A stretch of DNA of 64,000 nt, from contig JAQGIC010000032.1 in NCBI GenBank assembly GCA_028288725.1, forward strand, positions 1 through 64,000, given 5' to 3'. The notes beneath the pieces were generated by a model. That model was not told the DNA's origin and did no database searches. It saw only the letters and a program-made list of their open reading frames with translations. This document shows, one piece after another, positions 46,861 through 59,034 of this stretch. The stretch comes from Rhodospirillales bacterium (GTDB lineage: Bacteria; Pseudomonadota; Alphaproteobacteria; ATCC43930; CGMCC-115725). The number at the start of each line of letters is the position of its first letter. Within the stretch, counting starts at the first letter, position 1. The translations under genes and the position numbers were made by a program.

Positions 46861-47145
46861 ATGGAACGGGAAAAGGCGATAGCCCTCGATTTTGATCAGC
46901 GGGATCCGAGCGTGCCGACTGTCGTCGCTACCGGCCAGGGCGAGGTCGCGCGCCAGATCCTGGCGATCGCGTTCGAGCATGGCATCAAGGTGCGCGAGGA
47001 CCCCGATCTGGTCGAGATCCTGTCGACGCTCGATGTCGGCGACGAGATCCCGATCATTGCCTTCGCCGCTGTTGCGGAAATCCTGACGCACGTCTATCGC
47101 TGGGAACTCCAGCAGCGTTCTCCGACCGAGCACTCTCCGACATGA
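46861..47145 (+). CDS. FlhB C-terminal-domain-like protein (FhlB/FlhX family)
   Basis: This 94-residue soluble protein matches the cytoplasmic C-terminal domain of FlhB without its membrane part: KAIALDFDQRDPSVPTVVAT, ILAIAFEHGIKVREDPDLVE, VGDEIPIIAFAAVAEILTHV. The autocleavage NPTH site of FlhB is not present. Stand-alone relatives (FhlB/FlhX) can replace the FlhB C-domain in substrate-specificity switching of the flagellar exporter. Its stop overlaps the next gene (ATGA), which leads to fliO and fliP. Full-length FlhB is not in the window. Confidence 0.88.
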   Translation: MEREKAIALDFDQRDPSVPTVVATGQGEVARQILAIAFEHGIKVREDPDLVEILSTLDVGDEIPIIAFAAVAEILTHVYRWELQQRSPTEHSPT

Positions 47146-49628: not shown

Positions 49629-52600
49629 CTAGTTGATTTTGCTGAGCTGTTTCGTCGCCAGGCGCTGGCGATAGGTCGTCATGAAGCCCTGCAGATCGCT
49701 GATCTGGGCGACCCGGTCGGCCAGCGATTTGAAGTCACCGCTGGTCGACGAGCTGTTGCCGGCGACCACGCGGAAATCGTCCTTGAGCGCACTCCGTTCC
49801 ATCGCCGCGCCATATTGCTTCTGCAATGCGGCGAGCCCCATGCGGTCCTTGCCCAGCACCATCGCGGTCGCGATCTTGAGCGCCGTGCGCGCGGCGTCCT
49901 CGTCGAGCTTGCCGGCCTCCGGCGGATTCAGCCCGCGCTTCAGCACCGGCACCACGGCCGCCCAGTTCTGCGTCTTCCAATAGATATCGACACGCAGCCG
50001 GTCGGCATCGGCGGACTCGTCGCCGGCCAACAGCTTGAGCGCGTCGGCGGCCTTGCCCTGTTCGGCCAGCGCCCGCGCCCTGAGCTCCAGCCGCTGAGCG
50101 ACCAACTCCGGCGGCAGATCGACCGTCACCGGCAGATCGAGCGCCGCGATCGCATCGTCCGCGCGCCGATCGAGCAGGCGAACCAGCGCCAGTTGCGTGG
50201 CGACACGCGCCTGATCGATGCCGGTCAGCCGGGTCTTGACCTGGCTGTCGAGCAGGTCGGCCGCCCGGTCGAGCAGATCGACCTTGACCAGTTGGTCAGC
50301 CAGCTTGCGGATGATCTCGTCACCGGCGGCACCGGCGGGCGTCAGTTCCTTGAACTCGTCATAGAGGCCCAGTTGCTTCAGCGGTCCGATATTGTCCGCC
50401 GCCTTGCCCAGGAACAGGTCGATGAAATATTGCTGCATTTCGTCCGCGACGCCCTTGGACACGGGATTGTCGCCGTAGCTGGACAGGACCTGGCGCAGCG
50501 AGCGGAAGCCCGAGCGATAGTCGCCGTCGGCGATCTGCAGTTCCGCCAGCTTGCGCAGCACGCGCACCTCGAAATCATCGCCGCGCCAGACGAAGCGCAA
50601 CCGATCGAGCGCCGCGATCGCATCGGCCCGCTCGATCTGCTTGTCGTCCAGCTGGGTCAGGGTCATGGCGTAGGTCGCCTGTGCCCTGGCCAGGCTGGAA
50701 TCCGGCGATTTTGAAACCTCGGTCCACAAGGCGATCGCCTGCTTCAGGTCGCCCTGAATCGCCAGGATGCGGCCTTGCACCACCTTGGCCTGGTCGGCTT
50801 CGCCGCCGGTCGGGTGGCTGGCCAGCACGGTGGCGGCCAGGGCCAACGCCTTGTCGCGATCGCCGGCGTTCAGCAGGGCCTCGGCGATCTTGATCTGCAG
50901 CCGATTGCGGAGCGCCTGGGGATAGTTCTTGAGCGCGTTGTTCGATTTGCCATAGGCATTGAGTCCATCGGTCCATTGCCCGCGATCGGACGCCAGCACC
51001 GCCCGCCAGAGCTGCCCGTCGCTGCTGGCATCGAGCGAGGGATCGCCCAGATCGGCCGTCGCGGTGTCGAGTTGGTTGGCCAGTTCCTCCGACGCGCCGC
51101 GCAGCGCGCGCAGGTTCGGATCGTCGAACATGCCCGGCGCTTCACGCTCGATCGCGCGCAGCACGCTCAACGCCTCGACGCCCTGGGCATTGGCGAAATA
51201 GAAGCGTGCCAGGTCGAGCCGCGCATTGTTCTTGTCGTCGGACGAGGCGGTCACGATCGCCTCCATCAGCCCCTGGCGTCGCAAGGTGAAATTATCGCCG
51301 CCCTGCCAGTCGGCCGGGCTGAACACACGGGTCTGGTCGGCCTTGCCCGGACGTTCGGCGTGGCGGTCCGCATCGGACGAGAGCGCCAGACCGCCGGGCG
51401 CGCTCAGCTCGACCAGGCTCGGTTGCGCGCGGATCGCCAATTGATCGCTCGCCGGGCGGAACACCAAGCCCTGCGCGCTCGGCAGCACGCGGAAATCCGG
51501 AAATGCCGCGCCGAGGTCGGAGCCCTGTCCCAATTGCGGCAGCGGCACCGCCACCAGCACGTCGCCGGCATCGGGATCGATCAGGCTGATCGGGCTCGAC
51601 GGATCGCTGGCGGGAAAGATCATCGAGGCATTGGGGCCGTCGCTGCGCACCTGGCCCTGGACCGGCGCTTCGGCGCGCTGCGGCTGGCTGCGCAGCTCGA
51701 CGATCCAGGCGGTGCCGGCCCGACGGACGCTGGGGTTGAACCCGGCCCAGACATTGAGCCGCAGCACCGTGCCGCTACGGCTCGGAACCTGGGCGATCGA
51801 GGTGACGACCGGCCAGTTCGCGGCTCGAAAATCGCCGAAATCCATCTTCTGGGCGCGGTCGAACACCATCCAGACCGCGTTGCCGCGCCGGAAAATCGCG
51901 GCGGCCGCCGGCTGACGCCATTCGAAGCGCAACGAGACGCCATCGTCGATCAGCGTGTAGCGGATCTGCAGCCCGTTCTCGGCGGCGGACCCGAGCGTGC
52001 CCGAAACCTGACCGGTCGGTACCGGCGCATCCTGATCGGCATCGGCCGGCGGTGTCGGCGGACGCACCACGGGCGCCGGCGCCTCGGCGACCGGCGGCGG
52101 AACGACGGACGGTGGCGGGGCGGATACGGGCGTCGGCGGTGGTGGCGGTGTCGCCTCCGGTGCGACCTCCGGCGGCTTGCCGGGAACGACGTCGAGGATC
52201 ACCAGATTGCCCTGGCGACCGTCGTTGACCCGATGTCCGGGCGGCAAGGTGAATTGTACCTGGGTGCCGTCGGCCGACAGGGTCGCCGGACGCAGGCGCT
52301 CCGGCAACGCCCGGGCGAGCCGTGCCATGTCGATGGCCGCCGGCTGATCGAACGCGATCTGGACCTTGCCGTCGCCCTGCGCCAGCTTGTAGTCCGTCCG
52401 CTTCGGCCAATCGAACACGACCCGATCGCTGGCGCCGTGACCGCCGACCCGGACGGCGACCGGCGTCGGCTTTGCAGCATTGGGGGGTGTCGGCGGCGTC
52501 GCGGGTGCGGCGGCCGGTGTGGGCTTCACCTCCGGCGGCTTCGGCACTGGTTTCTCCGCGGCCGGCTTCGGCTTGTCGACCAGATCGACGACCAGGGTTG

Positions 52601-53036
52601 CGCTGTCGTAGGCCGCCTGCTGGATCGTGATCGGCCGCTTCAGATGCGCGGTGACGATCGTGCCGTCGGGCGCGGCGTCGAGCTGGTCCAGATAGGCGCC
52701 CAGCGCCCGCCGGATCGGGTCGAGCGGGGCGTCGACCGGGCGGTCGAACCGGATGGTCAGGCCGTCATCGGTCGCGCCGGCCTTGAACGGCACCGCGGGA
52801 CCGCCGCCGGTGCCGGCGAACACCAGCCGGGCGAAGCCCGGATGGATCGCGGCCCGCGTTTCGAGCCGGGTCCGGGCCGGTGCCGCCGGGGCGAGAGCCG
52901 CGGGCGCTGTCGGGGCGACAGCCGCAGGCGCTGTGGGCGCCGAAGGGGCCGCATCCTGCGCCCACGCCGATCCGGCGCAGACCAGACCGGTCAGCATCAG
53001 GCCTGCCAGAAGCAGCCGCCGATCAGGGCGTCGCAT
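49629..53036 (-). CDS. Giant periplasmic protein, three AMIN-like repeats plus TPR-type helices
   Basis: This 1135-residue protein has a signal peptide (LLLAGLMLTGLVCAGSAWA, cleavage near 26) and a Pro/Ala linker. Three beta-rich segments that read as homologous follow: about 56-155 (RLVFAG ... DGLTIRFDRP ... ATLVVDLVD), 190-290 (DRVVFDWP ... GKVQIAFDQP ... NLVILDVV) and 355-470 (VSLRFEWR ... NAVWMVFDRA ... AWIVELRS), split by Pro-rich linkers. They resemble AMIN domains, which bind peptidoglycan. The part from about 600 on is helical with TPR-like repeats (ARFYFANAQGVEALSVLRAI; ALLNAGDRDKALALAATVLA). It is the last gene of the fliL-fliM operon, 13 bases overlapping the MotB-like gene before it. 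The role is unknown; a motor-associated periplasmic scaffold is inferred. Confidence 0.8.
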   Translation of the reverse strand: MRRPDRRLLLAGLMLTGLVCAGSAWAQDAAPSAPTAPAAVAPTAPAALAPAAPARTRLETRAAIHPGFARLVFAGTGGGPAVPFKAGATDDGLTIRFDRPVDAPLDPIRRALGAYLDQLDAAPDGTIVTAHLKRPITIQQAAYDSATLVVDLVDKPKPAAEKPVPKPPEVKPTPAAAPATPPTPPNAAKPTPVAVRVGGHGASDRVVFDWPKRTDYKLAQGDGKVQIAFDQPAAIDMARLARALPERLRPATLSADGTQVQFTLPPGHRVNDGRQGNLVILDVVPGKPPEVAPEATPPPPPTPVSAPPPSVVPPPVAEAPAPVVRPPTPPADADQDAPVPTGQVSGTLGSAAENGLQIRYTLIDDGVSLRFEWRQPAAAAIFRRGNAVWMVFDRAQKMDFGDFRAANWPVVTSIAQVPSRSGTVLRLNVWAGFNPSVRRAGTAWIVELRSQPQRAEAPVQGQVRSDGPNASMIFPASDPSSPISLIDPDAGDVLVAVPLPQLGQGSDLGAAFPDFRVLPSAQGLVFRPASDQLAIRAQPSLVELSAPGGLALSSDADRHAERPGKADQTRVFSPADWQGGDNFTLRRQGLMEAIVTASSDDKNNARLDLARFYFANAQGVEALSVLRAIEREAPGMFDDPNLRALRGASEELANQLDTATADLGDPSLDASSDGQLWRAVLASDRGQWTDGLNAYGKSNNALKNYPQALRNRLQIKIAEALLNAGDRDKALALAATVLASHPTGGEADQAKVVQGRILAIQGDLKQAIALWTEVSKSPDSSLARAQATYAMTLTQLDDKQIERADAIAALDRLRFVWRGDDFEVRVLRKLAELQIADGDYRSGFRSLRQVLSSYGDNPVSKGVADEMQQYFIDLFLGKAADNIGPLKQLGLYDEFKELTPAGAAGDEIIRKLADQLVKVDLLDRAADLLDSQVKTRLTGIDQARVATQLALVRLLDRRADDAIAALDLPVTVDLPPELVAQRLELRARALAEQGKAADALKLLAGDESADADRLRVDIYWKTQNWAAVVPVLKRGLNPPEAGKLDEDAARTALKIATAMVLGKDRMGLAALQKQYGAAMERSALKDDFRVVAGNSSSTSGDFKSLADRVAQISDLQGFMTTYRQRLATKQLSKIN

Positions 53037-53691
53037 GGGCGCCCTCCCCGGCCGATTGGTCTTCGATCACGACATCGATCCGGGTCTGGCCGCCGTCGTT
53101 GAGATCGATCATCGCCGACAGCGGCAGCGGGCGCGGATACCCCAGATGCTGCAGCGCACTGGCGACGCTGTTCGCCGCCCCCAGCGCCGCGACCCATTCG
53201 TGGGTCGGCTCGTCGCCGGGCGCGGGGTTGGCGGCGCGATGGGCGGTAACCCCGACCTTGTTTTCCAGATTGGTCAGCAGGCGGGCGAGATCCGCCAGCG
53301 GCGGCTTGTCCGCATCGGCCCAATGGGCGATCGGCTGGGCCGGCAGGCGGAGCACCAGGCGATGCTCCTCGCGCCGCACCTCGGTGCCGGCGAGGAGCGG
53401 CTGATCGGCCACCAGCTTGTCGATCAAGGCACCGGCATAATTCAGATTCAGCCGTGCCCGGCCGGGAGCCGGCACTTCGGCCGCCCCCTTTCCCTGCAGC
53501 CGATGACCGGTCAGATATTCCGAGATCGGCAACACGACCCGTTCCCAATCATGCCGATCGACCGTGGTCGTGGCGAACAGCAGCACGAAGAACGAGACCA
53601 GCAGCGACATCAGATCGGCAAAGGTGATCATCCAGCCCGGCGAGCGCGGGCGCGCAGGCGGCTCGTCCCGATCGAAGCCGAACCGGATCAT
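53023..53691 (-). CDS. MotB-like protein with the conserved membrane Asp
   Basis: This 222-residue protein has one N-terminal helix, WMITFADLMSLLVSFFVLLF, with Asp26 where MotB carries the essential proton-binding Asp. The rest is periplasmic, with a degenerate OmpA-like C-domain (LARLLTNLENKVGVTAHRA, EWVAALGAANSVASALQHLG, RIDVVIED). The usual L-S-x2-R-A peptidoglycan motif reads LGAANS, so the binding Arg is missing. It overlaps the previous MotB-like gene by 4 bp. MotA is not in the window. It may be a stator subunit or an accessory one. Confidence 0.8.
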   Translation of the reverse strand: MIRFGFDRDEPPARPRSPGWMITFADLMSLLVSFFVLLFATTTVDRHDWERVVLPISEYLTGHRLQGKGAAEVPAPGRARLNLNYAGALIDKLVADQPLLAGTEVRREEHRLVLRLPAQPIAHWADADKPPLADLARLLTNLENKVGVTAHRAANPAPGDEPTHEWVAALGAANSVASALQHLGYPRPLPLSAMIDLNDGGQTRIDVVIEDQSAGEGAHATP

Positions 53692-54362
53692 GGCGCCGCC
53701 CCCGCATCGGGCTCGTCACCATTGAGGACGGCGAAGTCGAGCCGAAAGGCCGGACCGCTGCCGCGTTCGACCGCGATCGCCAACGCGCCGCCCGGACAGC
53801 CCTTGACATAGAGCCGGGCGGCGACCGTGGCTGCCCGCAGGCCCGCCAGACGTTCGGCCGGACCGCCCTGGGGCGCTTCGGTCGACAGCATGGCGTGCCA
53901 GGTCATGCGGATGGCCGGACCGGACGCATGGTGCTGCAGGATGAGCGACAGGCGATCCAGCGTCGGCAGCACTTCGGCCTTGAGCGTGGCGCTGCCGGGT
54001 TCGAACACCGAATCCTCGGGCAGCGAGATCTCGAGAAAGCTGTCGCTGGACGCCGCCAGGGTCGTGCGGGCGAGCGGCGCGAAGCCGGTCAGAAGCCCGG
54101 TCACGTCGCGCGCGAAACTTTCGACGCTGACGGTCTCGGGCCGTGGCGCCGGCGGCGCTTCGATCAGGCCCAGCGCCGAAGGCAGGTGCCCGAACGCGGC
54201 ATCGACCGAATCGATCACGGCGCGGGCGCGCGGACGCTGCACCTCCGAGATCGAGACCAGCACGATGAAGAACACGAACAGCAGCAGGAACAGGCTGACG
54301 TAGGTCGCCACCGCGACGCCCCCGGAGGCCTGTTGCACGGGGATCGAACCGTCCTCATCCAT
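53688..54362 (-). CDS. MotB-like protein lacking the membrane Asp
   Basis: This 224-residue protein has a single N-terminal helix, TYVSLFLLLFVFFIVLVS, that aligns without gaps to the next gene's TFADLMSLLVSFFVLLFA, but with Ser23 in place of the proton-carrying Asp. The periplasmic C-domain is OmpA-like but divergent (LEISLPEDSVFEPGSATLK, LPTLDRLSLILQHHASGP, ERLAGLRAATVAARLYVKG) and retains an Arg in the LAGLRA position. It precedes the Asp-bearing paralogue with a 4-bp overlap, which suggests a heteromeric partner. It could not pass protons as a normal MotB. Confidence 0.75.
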   Translation of the reverse strand: MDEDGSIPVQQASGGVAVATYVSLFLLLFVFFIVLVSISEVQRPRARAVIDSVDAAFGHLPSALGLIEAPPAPRPETVSVESFARDVTGLLTGFAPLARTTLAASSDSFLEISLPEDSVFEPGSATLKAEVLPTLDRLSLILQHHASGPAIRMTWHAMLSTEAPQGGPAERLAGLRAATVAARLYVKGCPGGALAIAVERGSGPAFRLDFAVLNGDEPDAGAAP

Positions 54363-54410: not shown

Positions 54411-55061
54411 TCAGAACAGCCCCGCGAGAATGGCATCGATATCGGCCTGGCTATTGGCGGCGCTCGGCATCGCCGGGCCGTTCATCAGCTTCGCATCGGC
54501 ATCCGCCTCGGTCGCGGGCTCCGGCTCCGGCGCCGGCACGAATTGCTCGGCCTGGTCGCCGAAGGCCACCAGCAGGCCGTGGATCTTGGTCTCGATATAC
54601 CGCAGCGTCTTCACCACCTTGGTGATGCGCTGGCCGGTGATGTCCTGGAAATTCGACGCTTCGAAGATCTTGGTCACGGAATCGGTGATCTGCGCCTGCG
54701 CCTCGGGCGGCAGCGTGGCGCCCAGCTTTTCCAGGGTCTCCGCCTCGTCCAGAATCACGCCGGTCGCGGCCGCTGTCGCGGCCACGACCGCGTCCAGCTC
54801 GTCGGTCGCCAACGGAATATGGTGGTGCGGGATATCGTGGGGCTGGACCGACGCGATCTCGCGCTTGGCCGCCTGAATGACGCGCGCCAGGGTTTCCAGC
54901 TCCTGATAGAGCTTGATCTCCGACAGCGACAGCGCCCCGGTCAGGCTCGCCACGACTTCTTCGACGGCGGCATCGACCTGCGCCGCGTCCACGACCGGGC
55001 GTTGGCCGCGCATCACATCGAGGCGGCGCGTCAGGTCGTCGGCGATCGCGAGCTTTCCCAT
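54411..55061 (-). CDS. cheZ: CheZ-like chemotaxis phosphatase
   Basis: This 216-residue helical protein carries the CheZ catalytic helix FEASNFQDITGQRITKVVKT, in which the Asp and Gln of QDITGQ match CheZ Asp143 and Gln147. The C-terminal peptide ADIDAILAGLF resembles the tethered CheY-binding tail. CheZ dephosphorylates CheY-P at the motor or receptor. The start has GGGAGG; the frame is open far upstream without similarity. A Pro/Glu-rich linker lies between the helix bundle and the tail. It sits in the fliL-fliM operon, after the motE-like gene by 140 bp. Confidence 0.9.
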   Translation of the reverse strand: MGKLAIADDLTRRLDVMRGQRPVVDAAQVDAAVEEVVASLTGALSLSEIKLYQELETLARVIQAAKREIASVQPHDIPHHHIPLATDELDAVVAATAAATGVILDEAETLEKLGATLPPEAQAQITDSVTKIFEASNFQDITGQRITKVVKTLRYIETKIHGLLVAFGDQAEQFVPAPEPEPATEADADAKLMNGPAMPSAANSQADIDAILAGLF

Positions 55062-55201: not shown

Positions 55202-55876
55202 TCAGTTCTGCGGGCTCTGGGCCCCGTCCGGCGGCACCGCAGCGGAGGTCTGCCGCCGCTGCGCCAGCGCCATGGTGATCGTCTGCGCGGTTTTCGGATC
55301 CATCGCGGCCATGATGGCCGAGGTGGTGCGATCCTTCATCCGGGTCAGGAGCTGCAGCAGCACGGGCATGTCGAGCTGCGACAGGATCGTCGCGGCTTCC
55401 TTCGGCTTCATGTTGGTGTAGATCGCGACCAGGCTGGACAGGCGCTGATCCTCTTGCGCATCGACCTTGCCCAGGCTCGCATCCACCGTCGCCTGCATCT
55501 GCTTCAACTGATCGATCTTCTCGTCGACGCGCTGTTCGGCGGCCTTGAGCAGGGTCTCGCGCTGGGTCAGTTCGTCGGCGCGCTGGTCGAGCTCGATCCG
55601 GCGCTTGGCCAGGTCCTGCAGCAGTTTCACCTCGGCTTCGGTGTAGGTCTGGGCCGGCGGCGTTTTGGGCACGCCGGGATTGAGCGGTTCGGCCGCGACC
55701 GCCGGTGCCGCGGCAGCCGACGGCGGCGCCTTCGCGGGCGTCTCGCTGGTCGGCTTGGCGGGAGCCGTCTGGGCGAAGGCGATCCCGGCCTCGTGATAGA
55801 CGGCGCCGAGCCGGGTCGCCAGCATGACGCCGGCGGCGACGATCAGAAGATGCAGAAGGCGTGGTTTCAGTCTCAC
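55202..55876 (-). CDS. motE: MotE-like protein (MgtE N-terminal-domain family)
   Basis: This 224-residue protein has an N-terminal membrane or signal helix (LLHLLIVAAGVMLATRLGA), a Pro/Ala linker, a coiled coil at about 80-145 (DLAKRRIELDQRADELTQRE, KIDQLKQMQATVDASLGKVD) and a C-terminal MgtE_N-like domain (YTNMKPKEAATILSQLDMPV, LLTRMKDRTTSAIMAAMDP). This is the layout of MotE, the periplasmic chaperone of MotC in Sinorhizobium. Here no MotC homologue was recognised, but a giant periplasmic protein ends the same operon. It overlaps the DUF6468 gene by 4 bp. Confidence 0.82.
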   Translation of the reverse strand: MRLKPRLLHLLIVAAGVMLATRLGAVYHEAGIAFAQTAPAKPTSETPAKAPPSAAAAPAVAAEPLNPGVPKTPPAQTYTEAEVKLLQDLAKRRIELDQRADELTQRETLLKAAEQRVDEKIDQLKQMQATVDASLGKVDAQEDQRLSSLVAIYTNMKPKEAATILSQLDMPVLLQLLTRMKDRTTSAIMAAMDPKTAQTITMALAQRRQTSAAVPPDGAQSPQN

Positions 55877-56520
55877 TGCCGGCTCCTCGCCTCGAGCGCA
55901 CGCAACAAATCACGCTCGGCCCGCGACTGCGGCTCCGCGGCCCGGGGCGCCTCGCGCGGCTCCGGCGGCCGGGGCGCTTCCTCGCGCGCCGGCGCCGCCG
56001 GACGCGGCTTCGGGCGGACCGGCCCGCGGTCGAGCGACGGTTCGATCCGGCCCGACGGCGCCTCGGCCGCTTCGGCCTGTTTCAAGAGCGTGGCGAGTCG
56101 GCTCTGGTTGCCCTTGGCATCGGCGGCCGCGGCGGCGGCCGCCGCCTGCTGGGCCGCCGTCAGACCGCTGGACCCGACGGTCGCCCCCGGCTGCTGATCG
56201 CGCTGCATGCGCAATCCGGCCTCGAGCCGGTTCGCGACCTCGCCGGCCCGCTCGGTGATGAAATTCAAATCGGCGTCCAGCTTGCGGGCCTGGTCGATGG
56301 TGTTCTGCAGCGTGCGACCGGCATCGCCCGCCGTCAGCTTCAGGGCCGCGACCGCTTCCTCGGCGGCGCCGGAGGATTCCTGCAGCCCCCTGATCAGGCC
56401 CTGCAGCCGCTCGCTGTCGTTGCGCAGCGCCGCCAAGCGGCCGTTGAGCTTGACCGCGAAGATGATCGTCGCGATCAGCAGGATGGCGACGACAGCGTCC
56501 ATGACCAGCGTGGTGGCCAT
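55873..56520 (-). CDS. DUF6468 membrane protein of the flagellar operon
   Basis: This 215-residue protein has an N-terminal helix (VMDAVVAILLIATIIFAVKL) directly followed by a coiled-coil region (LRNDSERLQGLIRGLQESSG, LQNTIDQARKLDADLNFITE). The second half is low-complexity Ala, then Pro/Arg/Glu-rich. DUF6468 genes usually lie beside fliM in alphaproteobacteria; the function is not known. The ATG at 56520 lies 4 bp after the fliM stop. The unconserved tail may be disordered cytoplasmic. Confidence 0.8.
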   Translation of the reverse strand: MATTLVMDAVVAILLIATIIFAVKLNGRLAALRNDSERLQGLIRGLQESSGAAEEAVAALKLTAGDAGRTLQNTIDQARKLDADLNFITERAGEVANRLEAGLRMQRDQQPGATVGSSGLTAAQQAAAAAAAADAKGNQSRLATLLKQAEAAEAPSGRIEPSLDRGPVRPKPRPAAPAREEAPRPPEPREAPRAAEPQSRAERDLLRALEARSRQ

Positions 56521-56524
56521 TCTG

Positions 56525-57631
56525 TCAGCGCTCCTTCGGCTTGGGATCGATCTTCTCATCGATGCGCACGGCCATGTTGCCGCTCTTGCGGCCCATCTTG
56601 CCGCTGAACATCAGAAGATCGCCGCATAGCAGCTCGACCTCGGAATCGGGCAGCGCGTTCAACGGCAGACGCGTGCCCACCTTCCAATGCAGCACGTCGC
56701 GCAAGGATAGGCTGAGCGTATCGAGCACGGCGCGGATTTGCACGTCCGTGTGCCACAGCTCGCCGGCCAAATGGGTTTCCCAGATCGAGTCACGGCCGAA
56801 TTTTTCGCCCATGAACATCTGCAGCAGCAGTTCGCGCACGGGTTCGAGCGTCGCGTTCGGGAACAGCAGTTCCAGACGACCGCCGCGATCCTCCATGTCG
56901 ATGCGCAGGCGCGCCACGATGGCGGCATTTGCCGGCCGGGCGATGGTGGCGAAGCGCGGATTGATCTCCAGCCGCTCGAACCGGAAATCGACCGGCGACA
57001 GCGGGTCGAACGCGGCCGACAGATCGCCCAGCACGACCGTCACCAGGCGTTCGACCAGATTGCGTTCGATCGTCGTGTAGGGCCGGCCTTCGATACGCAT
57101 CGCGGCCGTGCCGCGCCGTCCGCCCAGCAGCACGTCGACGATCGAGTAGATCAGCGCCGAATCGACCGTCAGCAGGCCGTAGTTGTCCCATTCCTCGGCC
57201 TTGAACACCGACAGCATGGCCGGCAGCGGGATCGAGTTCAGATAGTCGCCGAACCGGGTGGACGTGATGCTGTCGAGCGAGACTTCGACGTTATCGGAGG
57301 TGAAATTGCGCAAGGACGTCGACATCATGCGGACAAGGCGGTCGAACACCACCTCGAGCATCGGCAGACGTTCGTAGGAAACCAGTGCCGAATCGATGAT
57401 CGCGCGGATGCCGGACGTGTCGCGATCGCGCCCGGCGCCATCGGCGAAACCCAGCAGACTGTCGATTTCGTTCTGATTGAGGACGCGCGTCGAGGCTTCG
57501 CCGCCACCGCCGCCGAGACCCATGGCCGAAGCCATTTCGTCATCGCCGCCGCCACCGCCGTCATCGCCTCCCGCCATGGCGGCCCATTCGGCCGCCATGC
57601 GTTCTTCGTCTTCCTTCGTTACGTCCGACAT
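56525..57631 (-). CDS. fliM: Flagellar motor switch protein FliM
   Basis: This 368-residue C-ring subunit has the CheY-binding N-terminal motif VLNQNEIDSLLGFADG after an acidic and Gly-rich leader, the middle domain (LPMLEVVFDRLVRMMSTSLR, STRFGDYLNSIPLPAMLSVF, YSIVDVLLGGRRG) and the C-terminal SpoA domain (LRDVLHWKVGTRLPLNALPD). It sets rotation direction together with FliG and FliN, neither of which is in the window. fliL is 62 bp upstream. Confidence 0.96.
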   Translation of the reverse strand: MSDVTKEDEERMAAEWAAMAGGDDGGGGGDDEMASAMGLGGGGGEASTRVLNQNEIDSLLGFADGAGRDRDTSGIRAIIDSALVSYERLPMLEVVFDRLVRMMSTSLRNFTSDNVEVSLDSITSTRFGDYLNSIPLPAMLSVFKAEEWDNYGLLTVDSALIYSIVDVLLGGRRGTAAMRIEGRPYTTIERNLVERLVTVVLGDLSAAFDPLSPVDFRFERLEINPRFATIARPANAAIVARLRIDMEDRGGRLELLFPNATLEPVRELLLQMFMGEKFGRDSIWETHLAGELWHTDVQIRAVLDTLSLSLRDVLHWKVGTRLPLNALPDSEVELLCGDLLMFSGKMGRKSGNMAVRIDEKIDPKPKER

Positions 57632-57693: not shown

Positions 57694-58212
57694 TTACTGA
57701 ACAAGCATTTCCGTAAAGAGTACGTCGTCCACCTTGACCGGCGCCACGGCGGCGTTGACGCGCATCAACAATTCCTCGCGCAGCCGGTAGAGGCCGGCCG
57801 AACCCTTGAGGTCTTCCAGGCGCAGCTCGCGCAGATAGGTCTGGAAGGTATCGGTGATCCGCGCCTGCACCAGCTTGATCTTGACCTTGTCGTCTTCGCT
57901 CTCGATCTGAAAACTGACATGGAGCTTGAGGAAGCTGGACTTCTTGCTGCCGGTATTCAGGTTGACCAGCATATCCGGCAGATCGTCATAGAACACCGCG
58001 ACCCTGGGCGGCGGCGGCGGCGCTTCGACCTTGGTCTCGGTCTTCTCGTCGCCCTTGCCGAGCAGGGTCGACGCGATGCCGCTGAAATAGAGGCCCGCGG
58101 CGGTACCGACCATCAGAAGGACGGCGAACGCGACCAGGAAGATGAGCTTCTTGCTGCCGCGTCGGCGGCCGCCGGCCATGCCATCGTCCATCGCCTCATC
58201 GGCCATTGCCAA
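57694..58212 (-). CDS. fliL: Flagellar basal-body-associated protein FliL
   Basis: This 172-residue protein has a basic N-terminus (GGRRRGSKK), one helix (LIFLVAFAVLLMVGTAAGLY) and a periplasmic FliL domain: YDDLPDMLVNLNTGSKKSSF, LKLHVSFQIESEDDKVKIKL, RITDTFQTYLRELRLEDLKG and a C-terminal VKVDDVLFTEMLVQ. FliL rings surround the stator at the motor. A Met at residue 3 is an alternative start. A diverged paralogue precedes it by about 100 bp on the same strand. Confidence 0.93.
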   Translation of the reverse strand: MAMADEAMDDGMAGGRRRGSKKLIFLVAFAVLLMVGTAAGLYFSGIASTLLGKGDEKTETKVEAPPPPPRVAVFYDDLPDMLVNLNTGSKKSSFLKLHVSFQIESEDDKVKIKLVQARITDTFQTYLRELRLEDLKGSAGLYRLREELLMRVNAAVAPVKVDDVLFTEMLVQ

Positions 58213-58314: not shown

Positions 58315-58791
58315 TTATTGCTGCTGCACCATTCTGAGGTTGAGTTCCTCGGCACTGATCGGCGCGATCGCCGCATTGATGCGCGCGAGCATTTCGTCCC
58401 GATGCGAGTTCAACTTCGAGACGCTGGCGGTTTCCGAGATCGGCAGACTGCGGATATAGACCTGCATCGCATCGACCAGGATCGGCAGGAAGCTGTGCAT
58501 CCGGCCGGCATCCTCTCGGTTCACCATCAAAAGGCTGATCGCGAGCTGCAGCATCCGATTGCCGTGGCCCCCCGTGTCCAGCGAGACGATGATGAGCGGA
58601 ACATCGTAATAGCGCTCGGGCGTGAGCGGCTCCTTCGGCTTCACTTTCTCCACCTGGGCCGCGAGCGTGCCTTCCGGCGGCTTCAGGCCCAGCAGCTTCG
58701 GCAGAAAGCCGGTGACGGTGAGGGCCACGCCCGCACCGGCCAGCACGATGACCGCGCCGACCATCATGATAATGCCTACGCCGCGCTTCAT
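58315..58791 (-). CDS. Second FliL-like protein
   Basis: This 158-residue protein has the same plan as its neighbour: a membrane helix (IIMMVGAVIVLAGAGVALTV) and a FliL-type domain (YYDVPLIIVSLDTGGHGNRM, LQLAISLLMVNREDAGRMHS, LPILVDAMQVYIRSLPISET, and the end ISAEELNLRMVQQQ). Overall identity to FliL (57694-58212) is low but the order of segments and the alternating C-terminal strand agree. The chosen ATG removes a Ser/Arg-rich unconserved extension. It is the first gene of the nine-gene flagellar operon. Confidence 0.85.
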   Translation of the reverse strand: MKRGVGIIMMVGAVIVLAGAGVALTVTGFLPKLLGLKPPEGTLAAQVEKVKPKEPLTPERYYDVPLIIVSLDTGGHGNRMLQLAISLLMVNREDAGRMHSFLPILVDAMQVYIRSLPISETASVSKLNSHRDEMLARINAAIAPISAEELNLRMVQQQ

Positions 58792-59034
58792 CGACCGGCT
58801 CGCCCGCTGGTGGGAATGAGATCGAGGGATAGCCCTCCGGCCGGTCGAAGGCAAGGATGGCCGTCGGGCGGAAAATTCTGCCGGTCTCTTCGGGATTGCC
58901 CCGGCAAAGGCCGCCGCCGAAAGCCGATACACCCTGGCCAATAGACTGATCTACAAGCATTTCCCGCGTTGGCACAGGAGCCGCAAGGAGATCTTCGCCG
59001 GGCGCACTTGCCGGGTCGTGGAAGGAAGATCGAG
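58792..59034. promoter_or_regulatory. Divergent fliL-flgF control region with sigma-54-like promoter
   Basis: This 243-bp region separates the fliL operon (minus) from flgFGAH (plus). On the plus strand TGGCAC (58970-58975), five bases and CCGCA (58981-58985) keep the GG-N10-GC spacing of sigma-54 promoters (GG at 58971-58972, GC at 58983-58984) with a perfect -24 box. Transcription would start near 58996, 39 bp before flgF. In Caulobacter the flgF operon is sigma-54 dependent. No matching element was found for the minus-strand operon. Confidence 0.5.

Follow-up and report, generated by a model that had tools for sequence, protein, structure and literature searches.

The window analyzed here, a stretch of 64,000 nucleotides from a Rhodospirillales bacterium, contains a run of flagellar genes on the minus strand, in the order FliL-like, FliL, FliM, DUF6468, MotE-type, CheZ, B1, B2 and a TPR protein of 1135 residues. 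FliL is encoded at 57694..58212 (Pfam FliL, E 8.6e-19), the C-ring switch protein FliM at 56525..57631 (Pfam FliM, E 3.7e-63), and a DUF6468 protein of 228 aa, a neighbor conserved among the loci described below, at 55873..56559 (Pfam E 4.7e-19). These are followed by a MotE-type protein of 224 aa at 55202..55876, whose MgtE_N match lies just above the cut-off, and by a CheZ-like phosphatase of 216 aa at 54411..55061 (Pfam CheZ, E 1.7e-15). The identities of FliM, FliN, FliL, FliO and CheZ were verified with Pfam. The product of 55202..55876 is presumed to be MotE from its position, and the gene names FliF, FliG, FliH, FlbD, FlhA, FlgF, FlgG, FliP, TolQ and MotE are likewise presumptive family names.

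B1 and B2 lie near the end of this run, both on the minus strand. The upstream gene, B1 (53688..54362, read from 54362 to 53688), encodes a MotB-like protein of 224 aa with one membrane helix, in which Ser23 stands in place of the Asp, followed by an OmpA-like periplasmic domain. The downstream gene, B2 (53023..53691, read from 53691 to 53023), encodes an Asp-bearing MotB-like protein of 222 aa with the helix stretch W20..D26 and an OmpA-like domain in which Ala172 replaces the usual Arg in this genus. As the original prediction had it, the two reading frames are in tandem and overlap by 4 bp, the ATGA at 53688..53691 serving as both the stop of B1 and the start of B2, and translational coupling through this overlap is likely. 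The 3' end of B2 is in turn overlapped by the ORF of the 1135 aa protein (49629..53036, minus strand), which is MotK-like and has TPR repeats over the Pfam cut-off and an AMIN-like match under it; in the relative L013 the AMIN-like match is just over the cut-off.

Profile searches and predicted folds both agree with the assignment of the two chains as MotB-like. B2 matches Pfam MotB_plug with an E of 1.6e-11 and 44 bits (cut-off 24), and B1 does so marginally, with an E of 2.8e-5 and 24.1 bits against the same cut-off; in the relatives L012, L013 and L014 the B1 scores fall under it. The NCBIfam models MotB, MotD and MotS match the pair as well, all far under their cut-offs. For the periplasmic domain, B1 has a sub-threshold Pfam OmpA match (E 0.0046), no Pfam OmpA match was found for the B2 of the window, and the B2 of the relative L013 has one over the cut-off.

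AlphaFold2 predicted an N-terminal helix and an OmpA-like domain for each chain, with mean pLDDT values of 81.5 for B1 and 81.6 for B2. In the B2 model, the membrane helix is followed by a second, distinct helix (residues 46-62), where the plug would be, and the B1 model has a single helix spanning residues 15-56. The top Foldseek match of B1 was Salmonella MotB (2zov, E 6.3e-8), and those of B2 were PA0833 and Salmonella MotB. The VIA-align Z scores of B1, in which only residues 71-218 are well covered, were 15.9 for PA0833, 14.7 for YiaD, 13.6 for PomB and 12.4 for MotB 2zov. The structure alignments A4 and A5 were built without ORFs beyond a length window and without some near-duplicates. 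Neither single-chain model refutes the MotB call. Taken alone, the modeled periplasmic fold would be OmpA-like rather than specific to MotB, and because the OmpA-like proteins PA0833 and YiaD match the periplasmic domain of B1 no less well than MotB does, the MotB identity of this chain derives largely from the helix.

It is in this helix that the ion-binding residue differs between the chains. The B2 stretch W20-M-I-T-F-A-D26 corresponds to V-A-T-Y-V-S23 in B1. The Pfam MotB_plug alignments, both gapless, place B2 residues 15-52 on profile positions 13-50 and B1 residues 19-57 on positions 20-58, so that D26 and S23 share position 24, and the Phe-Phe pairs of the two chains fall in register, in agreement with this match. 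Homologs for alignment were drawn from 31 loci (the 30 best B1 matches plus L012) and from 80 B2-profile loci of GTDB species genomes, and distinct rows were obtained by removing sequences identical from residue 24 on. Some loci of the two sets come from the same assembly, and L032 and L105 are identical in both B1 and B2. Asp occupies the ion site in all 107 distinct B2 homologs with a residue there and is missing in 104 of the 105 distinct B1 homologs, which carry Ser (53), Gly (28), Ala (23) or Asp (1). The difference between Asp26 and Ser23 on which the original prediction was built is therefore real and beyond chance. The possibility that the Asp was shifted rather than lost in B1 was ruled out: across helix positions 17-39 of the 108 B1 rows, one of them truncated within these positions, the sole acidic residue is the Asp of locus L048.

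The B1 of L048, from genome G146, has kept the Trp as well as the Asp. In a tree of both chains with its root drawn at the midpoint, B1 and B2 each form one clade (100/100), and L048 branches beside the remaining 19 B1 rows, which group at 99/93. This topology fits a single Asp loss that would postdate the origin of B1 from an ordinary B subunit. Because the defining ion-binding Asp is absent, B1 should not be classed as a true MotB; its claim to be half of a stator axle is not lowered thereby.

The original prediction had also described a reverse split in the periplasmic domains, in which the Asp-bearing chain lacks the Arg of the LSxxRA motif, which we take, with that prediction, to be the peptidoglycan site. 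This part of the claim holds in the window genome, where B2 reads LGAANS, with Ala at the Arg, and B1 reads LAGLRA, with the Arg kept, but it fails in the relatives, since the Arg is present in 104 of 108 distinct B2 homologs. The sequences without it are those of the window genome and its congener G001 (Ala), of L012 in the same family (Phe) and of the outlier L124 (Gln), and these few exceptions indicate that the reverse split is a local, lineage-specific change. The His of the GHTD stretch, a presumed family motif, is kept in 98 of 108 distinct B2 homologs, and the B1 Arg is present in 98 of 106. The proposal that one chain carries protons and the other holds the wall is not supported in general by these counts. 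Loss of the Arg as a general division of labor was rejected, as the Arg difference is not conserved among homologs.

The two genes also co-occur in a fixed adjacent order. B1 is the immediate upstream neighbor of B2 in all 31 loci of the first set, 30 of which were selected by B1 score, and in 77 of the 80 loci selected by the B2 profile. In the remaining three, B2 begins 2-95 bases from the start of the contig, and B1 would therefore fall off it. The 72 genomes with a strong B1 match span 44 different family labels. As far as the contigs reach, the recurring order is fliL-fliM-DUF6468-motE-...-B1-B2-AMIN/TPR, often with fliP on the opposite strand, and it is found in Thalassospira, Magnetovibrio, Terasakiella, Tistrella, Kordiimonas, Kiloniella, Pelagibius, Emcibacter and many MAGs. 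That B1 is a decaying duplicate of MotB with no particular role is thus very improbable: the divergence of B1 and its marginal Pfam scores would suit decay, but its reading frame is uninterrupted and keeps its position in 77 of 80 loci, Phe32, Phe57 and Gly188 are nearly invariant, and Arg176 is found in 100 of 108 rows.

The 4 bp overlap recurs in 31 of the 77 B2-selected loci with both genes. This observation bears on another alternative, in which B1 is a brake, such that B1:B2 would be inactive, B2:B2 active, and motor output set by the level of B1. A paralog that has lost the ion-binding residue could in principle still dimerize, as such a brake would do. However, the fixed adjacency and the overlap suggest near-equal synthesis of the two chains, which would leave little room for tuning, and regulation of this kind appears improbable.

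No MotA-type gene was found beside the B1/B2 pair. Instead, a PomA-like gene, A, lies on the same contig as the pair (C37), beyond the end of the window at about 74573-75421 (74657-75406 in the PomA search), between fliN and a FlbD-type regulator. Its product exceeds the Pfam MotA_ExbB cut-off, and its best match, the NCBIfam PomA model, gives an E of 1.1e-60 and 206 bits, under a model cut-off of 341 that was passed by none of the 289 genomes sampled from the class (completeness at least 90%). When pair-bearing genomes are defined by a best B1-profile E < 1e-11 (72 of the 289), a PomA-like A (E <= 1e-25) is found in 70 of these 72 versus 45 of the 217 others (Fisher p 2e-33). If only genomes with any searched stator gene are counted, A occurs in 45 of 113 non-pair genomes (p 2e-17); the genomes are related, and both p-values are a guide only. 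Moreover, 89 further genomes with B1 matches include some likely true pairs (e.g., G072, G261 and G328; genus label as G181), and the figure of 45 of 217 therefore overstates the number of solitary A genes. Two pair genomes, G146 and G148, have no PomA-like A at this threshold.

The genomic context of A was compared in 20 regions chosen from the 70 genomes, in 29 genomes in which one contig carries both A and the pair, and in ten standalone PomA loci, all picked from longer lists. A follows fliN in all 20 regions, 19 of which have the order fliF-fliG-fliH-fliN-A-flbD-flhA, allowing for missed or cut genes, and no B-like ORF was found near A in any of the 20. On the shared contigs, A and the pair are 18-44 kb apart and on opposite strands in 19 genomes and at least 149 kb apart in the other ten. 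The 21 pair-associated A proteins in the tree form one clade (100/99), apart from 10 standalone PomA and 3 MotA proteins, and the standalone PomA is immediately followed by one B gene with the Asp in all ten chosen loci. Based on this distribution, we infer that A is cognate to B1/B2.

Canonical MotA is also present in 65 of the 72 pair genomes, which answers the question, raised with the original prediction, of whether a normal motA occurs alongside the pair. It was not found in the other seven (G000, G081, G104, G110, G148, G215 and G290). Three of these, G081, G215 and G290, have completeness values of 94%, 99% and 91%, respectively. In them, MotB_plug matches nothing but B1 and B2, and just two proteins match the MotA/TolQ family, namely the PomA-like A and a second, presumably TolQ-type, protein, so that no other flagellar stator gene was detected in these three genomes. 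In G104 and G110, a weak third match to the MotA family was found. In the window genome (G000), which has a canonical MotB, true absence of canonical MotA was not accepted, because contig C4 (8071 bases) stops near the place that the relative G001 indicates for the gene. No MotA N-terminus is readable in the tail of C4, and the gene is probably missing only due to the contig end.

Whether B1 and B2 could face each other within one A ring was considered from the packing of the helices. In E. coli MotB, the helix pair packs via positions -1, +2, +6, +9 and +13 from the Asp, and the substitution A31I at position -1 is non-motile (PMC10659934). Across 107 pairs, these positions are mostly Leu, Tyr/Phe, Leu, Phe and Asn/Val in B1 and mostly Thr/Ala, Val/Ile, Leu, Phe and Phe in B2. 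Thus, bulky B1 residues stand opposite smaller B2 residues at -1 and +2, with the reverse at +13, a pattern that a heterodimer could use and that is suggestive only; a B1:B1 pair would be crowded at -1. In terms of layer volumes, E. coli MotB is approached more closely by a B2:B2 homodimer than by B1:B2. When mutual information between the chains was computed over 75 non-redundant pairs, the top pairs showed no clean same-layer pattern. In a mirror-tree analysis of 60 loci with FliM and FlgG as controls, the partial r was 0.64 for B1-B2, 0.68 for B2-MotE and 0.52 for B1-MotE, and the correlated evolution of B1 and B2 was therefore not specific in these loci.

These results bear most directly on the rival in which the stator is an A5 ring around a B2:B2 homodimer, and B1, anchored in the membrane outside the channel, would be an accessory that assists in positioning or anchoring the unit, perhaps together with the MotE-type and MotK-like proteins. 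B2 mostly keeps the features of MotB, and its interface residues suit a homodimer. B1 is the more divergent chain, with a mean distance over the 60 loci of 1.70 versus 1.05 for B2. There is also a precedent for accessory periplasmic proteins in the Fla2 system of Cereibacter sphaeroides, where both MotE and MotK bind to MotB2 and rotation requires them (PMC10954123). However, the MotB-type helix of B1 with its Phe pair, its MotB-compatible predicted fold and the strict gene order favor a stoichiometric partner, and the accessory role is unlikely, though the strongest of the alternatives to the heteromeric stator.

Overall, the reading that stands as the best is that A, B1 and B2 form one dedicated flagellar stator, likely with an A5 ring around a B1:B2 heterodimer, to which a probability of roughly 0.6 is assigned. 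The A/B1/B2 module itself is well supported, and we infer that B1 and B2 pair inside one A ring. Counted in favor of this reading are the linkage of the pair, the Asp split, the co-occurrence and clade of A, the three genomes without another stator, the MotB/PomB-like predicted folds and the chain-specific interface residues. Against it stand the absence of A from G146 and G148, the score of A under the PomA cut-off, the canonical MotA of most pair genomes, the B2:B2 volumes, the covariation pattern, the unspecific mirror-tree signal and the MotB identity of B1 being largely that of its helix.

In this heteromeric stator, five A subunits would ring a B1:B2 axle in which B2 alone would offer an ion-binding Asp, and B1 would supply the second axle helix and a second OmpA-like domain. 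The binding of MotE and MotK to MotB2 in C. sphaeroides makes it plausible that the MotE-type and AMIN/TPR (MotK-like) proteins encoded beside the pair recruit or activate the stator at the wall, and they would probably do so. With one Asp per axle, each unit would have one ion site and would be expected to use about 5 ions per turn in 72-degree steps, instead of 10 ions and 36-degree steps. The fuller proposal, namely an obligate-heterodimer axle with a single Asp that operates as a half-loaded motor, taking about 5 ions for each turn in steps of 72 degrees, and trades torque for ion cost, is tentative and somewhat short of even odds.

Among known systems, the proposed stator resembles MotAB and PomAB (A5B2) in having an A protein that matches the PomA model, a MotB_plug helix, an OmpA-like domain and a flagellar location. 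It differs from them in that its two B genes are not identical and one lacks the ion-binding Asp, in that A and the B genes belong to separate operons, and in that its A protein scores under the PomA cut-off of 341. As compared by description, the AglR/AglQ/AglS system of Myxococcus likewise has one MotA-type and two MotB-type proteins; that system serves gliding, whereas the one described here is flagellar. The Fla2 cluster of C. sphaeroides, fliL2-pflI-motE-motA2-motK (PMC10954123), likewise has FliL, then MotE, then a periplasmic protein to whose AMIN/TPR architecture that of the 1135 aa protein probably corresponds. The likeness of the 1135 aa protein to MotK is one of architecture and position only. 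In Fla2, motA2 lies between motE and motK (PMC10954123), whereas CheZ, B1 and B2 are found there in the present locus, which also has fliM. A single MotB2 is named in the available portion of the Fla2 report (PMC10954123), in contrast to the two B chains here.

A literature search found no description of an Asp-less B and an Asp-bearing B together with an orphan PomA-like A. The parts come from known families, and the conserved Asp-less/Asp-bearing pair with its orphan A is apparently new. In many alphaproteobacteria (e.g., Thalassospira, Magnetovibrio, Tistrella, Terasakiella and Kiloniella), these stator genes sit amid the core flagellar genes, and they suggest a swimming motor with a lopsided axle. 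According to the part of the source available, it is not known if AglQ and AglS pair with each other or each with itself (PMC9389320), and the B1/B2 pair provides a flagellar counterpart to that open question. In models of 5:2 rotary motors, the two axle chains are taken to be equivalent, and each ion drives one 36-degree step (PMC9389320). An Asp kept on one chain only is a natural test of this assumption, and raises the questions of whether one site suffices and how step size, ion cost and torque are affected.

The canonical MotA of the window's own genome (G000) appears to coincide with a contig break, at the end of contig C4 (locus L172). The canonical MotB of this genome is complete and lies on contig C18. 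It does not adjoin MotA, which is also the case in the congener G001.

Both the Trp and the Asp of the MotB-type helix are kept in a single aligned homologue of B1, the Asp-less MotB-like protein (L048:1471-2175, genome G146). This genome possesses two canonical MotA genes, and no homologue of A, the PomA-like proposed stator partner, was detected in it at the profile-search threshold. It is possible that the L048 B1 represents a transitional form. In the homologues of B2, the Asp-bearing partner, at L023 and L024, the OmpA-like domain has no GHTD stretch; despite this, their genomes (G049 and G165, respectively) contain both the B1/B2 pair and the A gene.

Two genes ahead of a FliO match, 46861-47145 (plus strand) encodes a stand-alone FlhB C-terminal domain homologue of 94 residues, which matches Pfam Bac_export_2 over positions 262-335 (E 1.5e-15). 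A further tandem duplication in the B1/B2 operon is formed by two adjoining FliL-family genes on the minus strand, 57694-58212 and 58315-58941 (Pfam FliL, E 8.6e-19 and 1.6e-7, respectively). Because FliL is a known stator partner, a connection between these genes and B1/B2 is conceivable.
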